Below, piece by piece: positions 7,579 through 13,032 of a DNA stretch of 43,202 nt. The notes beneath the pieces are model-generated. The model had not been told where the DNA came from. It searched no databases and worked only from the letters and a program-made list of their open reading frames with translations. The position numbers and the translations under genes were made by a program. Source of the stretch: Candidatus Bathyarchaeota archaeon (GTDB lineage: Archaea > Thermoproteota > CALKCG01 > B24 > JAGTQN01); contig JAGTQN010000003.1 of NCBI GenBank assembly GCA_018396395.1, forward strand, positions 1 to 43,202, in the 5' to 3' direction. Numbering within the stretch: position 1 is the first letter of the stretch; each line of letters opens with the position of its first letter.

Positions 7579-7998
7579 ATGAAGGGCAGGGAAAGGGATC
7601 CCCTAAACCTTATTCCTGAGAGACGACAGGACCTTCTTTGGGAGACTACGCCCACGGGAGAGGTTTCTGTTACCATAAAGCAGCGAAGCCTATTCCCTAT
7701 TCCCCAAAGGCTTAGGAAAATAGTATTTGATGAAACAGGCTCCTACGTCCTCAGCCTCATCGATGGACGAATGACGGGTTTTGAGATTGCCCGAATTTTA
7801 AGCGAGGCAAAGGGCTTGGGCATCGAACAGGCGGAGGCTTCCTTGAGGGAATTCCTCAAAACCCTTCAGAGCCGAGGCATTATTACCCTTCGAGGGGGCT
7901 TTGGTCATTGTAAGGCATGTGGGGCAGACCTTCCAGAGGGAGCCCTTTACTGTCCCCAGTGCGGTACTAGGCAGGCTTCGGAGGAGAGCCATGGCTAG
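7579..7998 (+). CDS. PqqD-family protein with C-terminal zinc ribbon
   Basis: PQRLRKIVFDETGSYVLSLIDGRMTGFEIARILSEAKGLGIEQAEASLREFLKTLQSRGII plus CKACGADLPEGALYCPQCGT. Confidence 0.75.
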   Translation: MKGRERDPLNLIPERRQDLLWETTPTGEVSVTIKQRSLFPIPQRLRKIVFDETGSYVLSLIDGRMTGFEIARILSEAKGLGIEQAEASLREFLKTLQSRGIITLRGGFGHCKACGADLPEGALYCPQCGTRQASEESHG

Positions 7999-10033
7999 GA
8001 TTAGGCTTCCCGAGGCCCTCCTTAGGCTTGGGAGATGGGCGCCCTTTTCCCCAAGGAACAAAGGTAATCCTTCGGCTTAGTTCCATGGGAAGGTAAGAGG
8101 GCCTGAAGGGCATCCCTTGGCACTTTTCCCGGATCTCTTGGATAAGCTCAGGAAGGCTCATAGCCTGGCGAAATTCCTCTTGGATGCCAGACTTCTCCCT
8201 AACGACGACTGGAAGCTTATCGCTTTCAAGCTCCCTATCGCCTAGGACGATGATGTAGGGAACCCAGCTCGTCTTGGCATCCATAACCCTCTTGGGAACC
8301 GATAGGTTCCTGTCATCTAAGGAAACCCTGATACCCTCGGATTGGAGCCTTTCGGCAATTTCCCTACACTTGGCCAAATGCCTATCAGCGACTGGAATAA
8401 GCCTCACTTGATCTGGGGATAGCCAAAGGGGAAGCATGGGAGCCTTTCCCCTCTCCTCATCCTTGGCGGCATTCTCCAAGAGGATGTAGAGGGTCCTTTC
8501 GAGGCTTCCGAAGGATGAGGCATGGAGGATGATACATGGAAGTTTCCTTCCATCCTCCGCCACATATCGGATTCCAAACCTCTCCCCATTCTTCACATCA
8601 TACTGAACGGTCGATATCTGGACATTCGCCTCATCGGCCCCTATCGCCTGATATTCGTTCTTGATGGCGTAATAATGGGTCATCTCCTTTGTGAGTTTGA
8701 AAAAACTCGGAACGCCCATCTTTACGCAAAGATCCTTTAGCCAAGCTTTATGCTTCTCATAAAACCATTCTACGCCCTCCCATCCTAGGACCCAATTTCC
8801 CTTAGCTATGACTCGATCCATAAGATCCTTGAATATGAGGCATAGCTTCTCGAACTCTTCCTTCGCCTGATCCTCGTTACCGCAGAAGCAGTGCTGATCC
8901 GTCATGGTGAATTGTCTCAGCCTCCTCAGACCCACGAGTTCTCCGCTCAGCTCCCTCCTGAAGCATGGGACCTCCTCATAGACCTTCACGGGAAGATGCC
9001 GATGGCTGAAGATTGCCTTCTGAACGAAGGGAAAGGCTCCGGGATCCGAGGAGAAACGAAGGACGAAGGTCTCACCCTCATATTCCATGGCATAGTCCCT
9101 TTCATGAAACTCCCCCATCAGCTGCCTTATGGCTTCCACGCTCTGCCTATAGATTAGGGGGTTCTGGATCTTCATGGCCCCCCATGGTATGGCAACCTTA
9201 AAGAGGGCATAGTCCTTGATGAGATCGAAGATGAGGGCTCCGTTTGGGTAGAGCTTGAAGTTTCCGAGGTCGCTCTCGGGACAATAATCCATGAGCTCGA
9301 GTTTTCGCATATAATCGATGTGCTTGGGGACTCGCCTCCCAGGGTTTCCCTCCAGCTCATTCCTAACAAAGATCCAAAGGAGCCTGTAGACCTCTTGCCC
9401 GCGCTGAAAAATGGGACATTCCTTCCAGTTATCGGGAGTAACCTCGTACTCGCTTCCATCTGCATCGACAAGAATGAACCTTCCGAACCTTTCGCCCTCC
9501 ATAGCCCTCCCCTCCACCTTCTCTGCCTCCTTCCTTTCCTTAACCGCCTCCTCCCCCCTTCCCATCCTCCTCTTCCCCTGCCTCAAAGCCTCTGCCCCCG
9601 CACCCAAAGGAACTATGGACCTAGAAAGCTCAGAAAGGGGATGGCCCTTGCATTCGATGGTAAAGCCCTTATACCAACCGAAGGGGCTCCTTCCAACCTT
9701 AAATTCTCCTAAAGTCGAAAGGGAGGCCTCTAGGTTTTGAAGGATCTTTATCGCCACCCTTGGCTTGGCGAGTTCTGGGGATAGGTGGGCATAGGGATAG
9801 AGCATCACATTCTTTGCGCCAACTTTTCTAGCCACATCGGCGACTTCTTGGGCCGCCTTCATCACCACGTCTTCTGGACTAACCTCATCGATGGACTCGA
9901 CTGTGCAGAAGGCTACGAGGACATTCTTCATAGCCTGACTTTTCCTATCCTCCGTAAGCTCCTCCCTTTCCGATGTGGCAGGACTTTTTACTTGGTAGGC
10001 GAAGCTATCGGCATGGATTAGGAGTAGCTTCAT
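7967..10033 (-). CDS. thrS: Threonyl-tRNA synthetase, archaeal type with N-terminal editing domain
   Basis: 688 aa; MKLLLIHADSFAYQVKSPA...LYPYAHLS...FGWYKGFTIECKGHPLSELSR...FVLRFSSDPGAFPFVQKAIFSHRHLPVKVYEEVPCFRRELSGELVGLRRLRQFTMTDQHCFC. The 3' end overlaps the convergent PqqD gene by 32 bp. Confidence 0.95.
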   Translation of the reverse strand: MKLLLIHADSFAYQVKSPATSEREELTEDRKSQAMKNVLVAFCTVESIDEVSPEDVVMKAAQEVADVARKVGAKNVMLYPYAHLSPELAKPRVAIKILQNLEASLSTLGEFKVGRSPFGWYKGFTIECKGHPLSELSRSIVPLGAGAEALRQGKRRMGRGEEAVKERKEAEKVEGRAMEGERFGRFILVDADGSEYEVTPDNWKECPIFQRGQEVYRLLWIFVRNELEGNPGRRVPKHIDYMRKLELMDYCPESDLGNFKLYPNGALIFDLIKDYALFKVAIPWGAMKIQNPLIYRQSVEAIRQLMGEFHERDYAMEYEGETFVLRFSSDPGAFPFVQKAIFSHRHLPVKVYEEVPCFRRELSGELVGLRRLRQFTMTDQHCFCGNEDQAKEEFEKLCLIFKDLMDRVIAKGNWVLGWEGVEWFYEKHKAWLKDLCVKMGVPSFFKLTKEMTHYYAIKNEYQAIGADEANVQISTVQYDVKNGERFGIRYVAEDGRKLPCIILHASSFGSLERTLYILLENAAKDEERGKAPMLPLWLSPDQVRLIPVADRHLAKCREIAERLQSEGIRVSLDDRNLSVPKRVMDAKTSWVPYIIVLGDRELESDKLPVVVREKSGIQEEFRQAMSLPELIQEIREKCQGMPFRPSYLPMELSRRITFVPWGKGRPSPKPKEGLGKPNPSHGSPPKPA

Positions 10034-12655: not shown

Positions 12656-12757
12656 TCCCTTCCCTCACCTCCCCAGATCCTTTGGTTTTGAAATCTACAG
12701 CCCCCTTATTCCTTTGAACCAAAGCTTATATTAGCCCTTTGGGAAAAAAATTACTGC

Positions 12758-12907
12758 GCCGGGGTAGCCTAGAGCATTGAGTGCGGGTAGCCTGGTAGGG
12801 TGCAGGCCTGCTATCCAAGAGATCTGGTATTGTGGGTTGAAAGCCTGTGGCGCATCCGCGCCTCACGGGTTCAAAAACGCAAGGCGTGGAAAATCCCGTC
12901 CCCGGCG
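12758..12907 (+). tRNA. tRNA-Ser(GCU) with three apparent introns (about 12773..12790, 12814..12841, 12876..12893)
   Basis: Acceptor GCCGGGG/CCCCGGC, discriminator G; D-stem GCC/GGT; anticodon stem CAGGC/GCCTG with loop CTGCTA-A; long variable arm GGCGC-ATCC-GCGCC; T-stem ACGGG/CCCGT. Cloverleaf forms only after removing 18+28+18 nt. Intron edges are by eye. Confidence 0.85.
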
Positions 12908-12937: not shown

Positions 12938-13032
12938 GGGCCGGTCGTCTAGTCTGGTTAGGATGCCACCCTTACGAAGCCATAGGACTTTAGGAAAGGT
13001 GGCGGTCGCCGGTTCAAGTCCGGCCCGGCCCA
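12938..13032 (+). tRNA. tRNA-Val(UAC) with anticodon-loop intron (about 12977..12996)
   Basis: Acceptor GGGCCGG/CCGGCCC + A; D-stem GTC/GAT; anticodon stem CCACC/GGTGG with loop CTTACG-A; T-arm GCCGG-TTCAAGT-CCGGC. Confidence 0.88.

Follow-up and report, generated by a model that had tools for sequence, protein, structure and literature searches.

The question raised by positions 12758–12907 (plus strand) of the window, the whole stretch of 43,202 nucleotides analysed here, is whether these 150 nt, which have the look of a type II tRNA-Ser(GCU) gene interrupted by three inserts, can give a working tRNA. The first-pass annotation had read this locus as tRNA-Ser(GCU) with introns in the D, anticodon, and T loops. 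Three insertions, their boundaries against intronless orthologues, BHB (bulge-helix-bulge)-compatible pairing, and both endonuclease genes are present. Judged by these features, the locus is almost certainly a functional tRNA-Ser(GCU) gene, the sole copy detected, whose transcript would carry three short archaeal BHB introns at positions 15/16, 37/38, and 59/60, to be cut by a two-subunit endonuclease before ligation of the exons. The features of the locus are listed in Table 1. The neighbouring tRNA-Val(UAC) gene is possibly co-transcribed with tRNA-Ser(GCU).

Table 1. Features of the tRNA-Ser(GCU) locus and its surroundings (positions are those of the window).
Feature	Position	Strand	Basis
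Candidate archaeal box A (TATA) promoter, A/T-rich, CTTATATTAG	12725..12734	+	Sequence reading; 24–33 nt upstream of the tRNA 5' end
Exon 1: acceptor 5' strand, 8–9, D-stem 5' strand, A14 G15	12758..12772	+	
Intron 1, 18 nt, D loop 15/16, AGCATTGAGTGCGGGTAG	12773..12790	+	
Exon 2: remaining D arm, anticodon stem 5' strand, anticodon GCU, A37	12791..12813	+	
Intron 2, 28 nt, canonical 37/38, TCCAAGAGATCTGGTATTGTGGGTTGAA	12814..12841	+	
Exon 3: position 38, anticodon stem 3' strand, long variable arm, T stem 5' strand, TTCAAA	12842..12875	+	
Intron 3, 18 nt, T loop 59/60, AACGCAAGGCGTGGAAAA	12876..12893	+	
Exon 4: U60, T stem 3' strand, acceptor 3' strand, discriminator G73; CCA not encoded	12894..12907	+	
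Neighbour tRNA-Val(UAC), one 20-nt anticodon-loop intron	12938..13032	+	Rfam RF00005, 50.6 bits; spliced alignment to G002 tRNA-Val

With the three inserts taken out, the locus yields an 86-nt tRNA-Ser product (85-nt body plus G73). The spliced 85-nt body was aligned by BLAST, end to end and gapless, with the intronless tRNA-Ser(GCU) genes of genomes G004 (94% identical, E=2.2e-32) and G002 (92% identical, E=1.1e-29). The gapless match to intronless orthologues bears out the coordinates and product length proposed in the first-pass annotation. A covariance model trained on 17 tRNA-Ser genes without introns, all from relatives and with the sequence under study left out, matched positions 12758–12906 with 58.3 bits (E=4.4e-11), and its alignment placed exactly 18, 28, and 18 extra nucleotides in the D, anticodon, and T loops. 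By these sequence comparisons, a tRNA-Ser(GCU) locus with three inserts is not a chance occurrence. Standard tools did not report it: the window yielded no tRNA with ARAGORN (bacterial mode), and Rfam, run at the gathering threshold, missed tRNA-Ser(GCU) and reported only the neighbour tRNA at 12938–13032.

The intron boundaries were examined with an archaeal scoring rule that looks for a central helix of 4 bp between bulges of 3 nt, each cut behind its second base, with an inner stem in the intron and an outer one in the exons. Short repeats at the insert ends allow 4, 2, and 4 placements for introns 1, 2, and 3, respectively. Every allowed placement was scored, and for all three introns the best one coincided with the boundaries originally proposed, where the covariance model also puts the 18/28/18-nt insertions. 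Of the tools suggested initially as a check, the BHB search therefore agreed with the first reading and ARAGORN did not.

Intron 1 (15/16) has a central helix GCCU:GGGU with all 4 pairs, an intron stem of 3–4 bp, and bulges AG^A and AG^C. The exon-side helix is absent (0 pairs), so that a strict full BHB is not formed; by its predicted pairing, this is a relaxed HBh'-type motif, a known variant, and not a full BHB. Intron 2 (37/38) has a central helix CUGC:GUUG with 3 of 4 pairs and a U-U mismatch, bulges UA^U and AA^A, an intron stem of 3 bp, and an exon helix formed by the anticodon stem (7 pairs). In intron 3 (59/60), the central helix UUCA:GGAA has 3 of 4 pairs and an A-G mismatch; the bulges are AA^A and AA^U, the stem ACGC-AAG-GCGU is of 4 bp, and the T stem (5 bp) serves as exon helix. 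Both bulges and both outer helices are thus present in introns 2 and 3, with one central mismatch each. Shuffled inserts fitted the BHB rule equally well with P=0.0012 (intron 1), 0.031 (intron 2), and 0.00014 (intron 3). The hairpins described in the first reading for the D- and T-loop inserts are both there. The claim that both inserts are splicing-substrate motifs stands for the T-loop insert, with its one central mismatch, and only in relaxed form for the D-loop insert. The three motifs involve non-overlapping segments of the precursor, and all of them could exist together. Minimum-energy folding of the whole precursor did not recover the BHB fold: the BHB-competent cloverleaf has a predicted −45.6 kcal/mol versus −63.3 kcal/mol for the minimum-energy fold (37 °C).

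The genome contains two genes of the PF01974 (tRNA_int_endo) family, with E=1.6e-30 and 2.2e-24. The product of the alpha gene (contig C83) has its best match in the Aeropyrum pernix endonuclease, namely in the catalytic subunit (3p1z chain B, E=2.1e-46). It retains Tyr/His/Lys and has the extra loop, the lysine of which aligns with A. pernix K44. This loop lysine was reported to be necessary for broad specificity (PMC6379350). The beta subunit (contig C43), aligned to 3p1z chain B and to class relatives, lacks the catalytic His and has KEPAKF where others have the IDHAPF stretch. This gene pair is the set expected for an (alpha-beta)2 enzyme accepting relaxed motifs, the heterotetramer and its activity being predictions from sequence. 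A two-subunit endonuclease of the broad-specificity type, for which the first reading had advised a search, is thus encoded.

The following route to the mature tRNA would apply. We infer that the gene is transcribed and that its precursor is processed by this endonuclease, whose genes lie elsewhere in the genome and whose predicted form is a heterotetramer, (alpha-beta)2, of broad specificity. The enzyme would cut each bulge after the second nucleotide. A tRNA ligase would then join the exons into the mature 85-nt body plus G73, and the resulting tRNA-Ser(GCU) would decode AGC and AGU codons. These codons are common in nine genes of the window (96 of 3834 codons).

The locus is not the only one in this genome with introns. 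Its tRNA loci (L012–L023, L101–L107, L180, L181, L183, L184, and L218) were aligned, introns allowed, to spliced tRNAs of G002 (reference tRNA L161, anticodon TTG, being Gln), with some boundaries approximate. At least 41 introns were counted in 36 tRNA genes; about 25 of the 36 genes contain introns and 11 do not. The census of G002 gave 5 introns in 42 tRNA genes, with an intronless tRNA-Ser(GCU) in addition to these. The genome studied here is unusually rich in tRNA introns. For comparison, Thermoproteales average 0.84 introns per gene, and Pyrobaculum calidifontis has 71 introns in 46 genes (PMC8450103). Introns at 15/16 were found in eight tRNAs (Ser-GCU, Ser-GGA, Arg-CCU, Arg-UCG, Arg-UCU, Glu-CUC, Gln-UUG, and His) and introns at 8/9 in five (both Lys tRNAs, Glu-UUC, Leu-GAG, and Asn). 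The T-loop intron site of tRNA-Ser(GCU) is shared by Leu(UAA). A tRNA gene with a CAU anticodon (L106, G000:C86:8998-9140) is the second three-intron gene, the boundary of its D-loop intron being approximate. Besides two other introns, tRNA-Glu(CUC) (L101, contig C58, minus strand) has a candidate insert with a weak motif in the 3' acceptor strand, and Ser(GGA) on contig C70 has candidate variable-arm inserts, also with weak motifs. Two near-identical intronless tRNA-Cys genes lie on separate contigs (L009, C134; L010, C51).

A different reading of the locus is a decayed tRNA-Ser pseudogene with random insertions, the working copy of which is missing from an incomplete assembly. The assembly is a MAG, 82.6% complete and in 143 contigs, so a second copy may have been missed, and the failure of ARAGORN and Rfam to report the gene also fits this reading. 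The exons, however, are undecayed: stems are intact, loops are conserved, and the match to orthologues is gapless. All three inserts fit the BHB rule, and similar inserts occur in many other tRNA genes of the genome. A second intact tRNA-Ser(GCU) gene, which the first-pass annotation had named as the sign of a pseudogene, was looked for and none was found in this incomplete assembly. We regard decay as very improbable. The least credible reading is that the inserts stay in an unspliced tRNA whose D and T loops are structurally expanded: these two inserts are hairpins and the precursor has a predicted minimum-energy fold other than the BHB one, but the insert boundaries match the BHB cut rules, a matching endonuclease is encoded in the genome, and inserts of 28 nt in the anticodon loop and 18 nt in the T loop are expected to abolish decoding and elbow formation.

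The preferred reading, a spliced three-intron tRNA-Ser(GCU), was then placed in its lineage. The class of the host is represented by 7 genomes in one order and 3 families. One of them, G003, is 100% identical over 4914 bases to 'Candidatus Bathyarchaeota archaeon QZM_A2_bin_24' in NCBI. The sediment labelled QZM_A2 was taken from a Tibetan hot spring (PMC8407382). The host is a hot-spring archaeon of a poorly known class and, because G003 corresponds to this NCBI 'Bathyarchaeota' bin, it is not a member of the Thermoproteales. Three introns had been regarded in the first-pass annotation as informative about lineage; they occur here outside the order in which multi-intron tRNAs are established.

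All six class relatives have a full-length, intronless tRNA-Ser(GCU). The simplest history is therefore a gain of the three introns on the branch leading to this genome, which the distribution among these sequences makes most likely. No tRNA was seen near the threonyl-tRNA synthetase (ThrRS) gene in the named relatives when synteny was checked. The genome encodes a separate ThrRS-type editing domain (L077, G000:C11:129-551) besides the full ThrRS at window positions 7967–10033. The ThrRS matches in G002 and G004 (L073/L075 and L074/L076) are each split into an editing domain and a catalytic part, which overlap by a few bases where they join.

The class relatives G001 and G003 possess the same loop-bearing catalytic subunit, yet their tRNA-Ser(GCU) genes are intronless. 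Accordingly, intron load is not diagnostic of enzyme type. A multi-intron tRNA had been expected to tell the type of the splicing enzyme; the predicted enzyme is indeed encoded here, but the converse does not hold in these two relatives. This suggests that a broad-specificity enzyme permits intron gain and is not by itself its cause.

The same gene is interrupted elsewhere in the phylum. The tRNA-Ser(GCU) of G023, a 98% complete genome from another family (G023:C4:95351-95527, minus strand; L240/L252), contains four introns: 28 nt at 15/16; 20 nt at 30/31; 13 nt at 37/38; and 30 nt at 59/60. Their removal leaves a clean cloverleaf. Within the family of G023, the tRNA-Ser(GCU) of G406 (L246) has three introns, at 15/16, 30/31, and 37/38, and that of G404 (L247) has one, at 15/16. 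These three genomes form a graded series, with differing intron sequences at the same sites. The maximum given in PMC8450103 and PMC4033280 is three introns per archaeal tRNA gene, and a literature search for an archaeal tRNA gene with four introns found none.

Pattern searches in 400 genomes of the phylum detected D-loop introns of the 15/16 type in Arg tRNAs of 7 genomes and in Ser tRNAs of 3. One match to the Ser D-loop pattern (G050, L243) was not a tRNA and was rejected. Among 17 introns at 15/16, taken from 10 genomes, pairing of the inner stem persists despite differing sequences: 86 stem pairs were counted versus 20 expected with halves swapped (p<1e-5), with a slight lean towards the motif, since the register of the Arg-CCU (G003, G006) and Ser-GGA (G199) introns was motif-chosen. 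The stem conservation supports the view that these are real, structured introns. The tRNA-Arg(UCU) genes of G003 and G006 (L189, L235) have a 15/16 intron with a stem of 10–14 pairs, in which A-U and G-C pairs are exchanged between the genomes, a compensatory change.

D-loop introns as such are already known, for example from Methanopyrus (PMC3695527). The intron positions given in PMC4090602 are 20/21, 22/23, 25/26, 29/30, 30/31, 45/46, 53/54, 56/57, 59/60 'etc.'; 15/16 is absent from this open-ended list, and we therefore do not claim that the site is new. We consider it probable that tRNA-Ser(GCU) was invaded repeatedly and independently in the phylum at 15/16, 37/38, and 59/60, that G023 arrived at four introns, one more than the published maximum, and that 15/16, right after the conserved A14-G15, is a little-documented hot spot common to Ser, Arg, His, Glu, and Gln tRNAs.

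The 'shattered tRNA' extreme, best known from Thermoproteales, is extended by this genome to a little-known class. Introns are few in those close class relatives whose catalytic endonuclease subunit is similar, so that tRNA intron gain becomes directly comparable within one small class. Genes of this kind are missed by ARAGORN and Rfam, and the tRNA sets of such MAGs may thus be under-counted.

Three-intron archaeal tRNAs are already known; the present one occurs in a lineage where it was unexpected. In the Thermoproteales, for example, tRNA-Pro(UGG) of Pyrobaculum islandicum has introns at 25/26, 37/38, and 56/57 (PMC4090602). The three-intron genes of Thermoproteales likewise combine three short introns of the BHB type, of which one is canonical and the others are not, with introns abundant genome-wide and a two-subunit endonuclease with the broad-specificity loop. 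Our host differs in belonging to another class of the phylum and in using the 15/16 site in the D loop, not named in PMC4090602. Caldiarchaeum subterraneum, an archaeon that also lies outside the Thermoproteales, has tRNA introns in the D, V, and T arms, but only 13 of its 45 tRNA genes have introns, 3 of them several (PMC3293823), as compared to about 25 of 36 here. The tRNA-Glu of Methanopyrus kandleri has a second intron in the D loop, which is a predicted splicing-endonuclease substrate with precursor reads in RNA-seq (PMC3695527). It contains two introns only (PMC3695527), and the enzyme of M. kandleri lacks the specific loop (PMC6379350). A further counterpart is tRNA-Ser(GCU) of G023, the same tRNA with introns at the same 15/16, 37/38, and 59/60 positions, which differs in intron sequences and in its fourth intron at 30/31.
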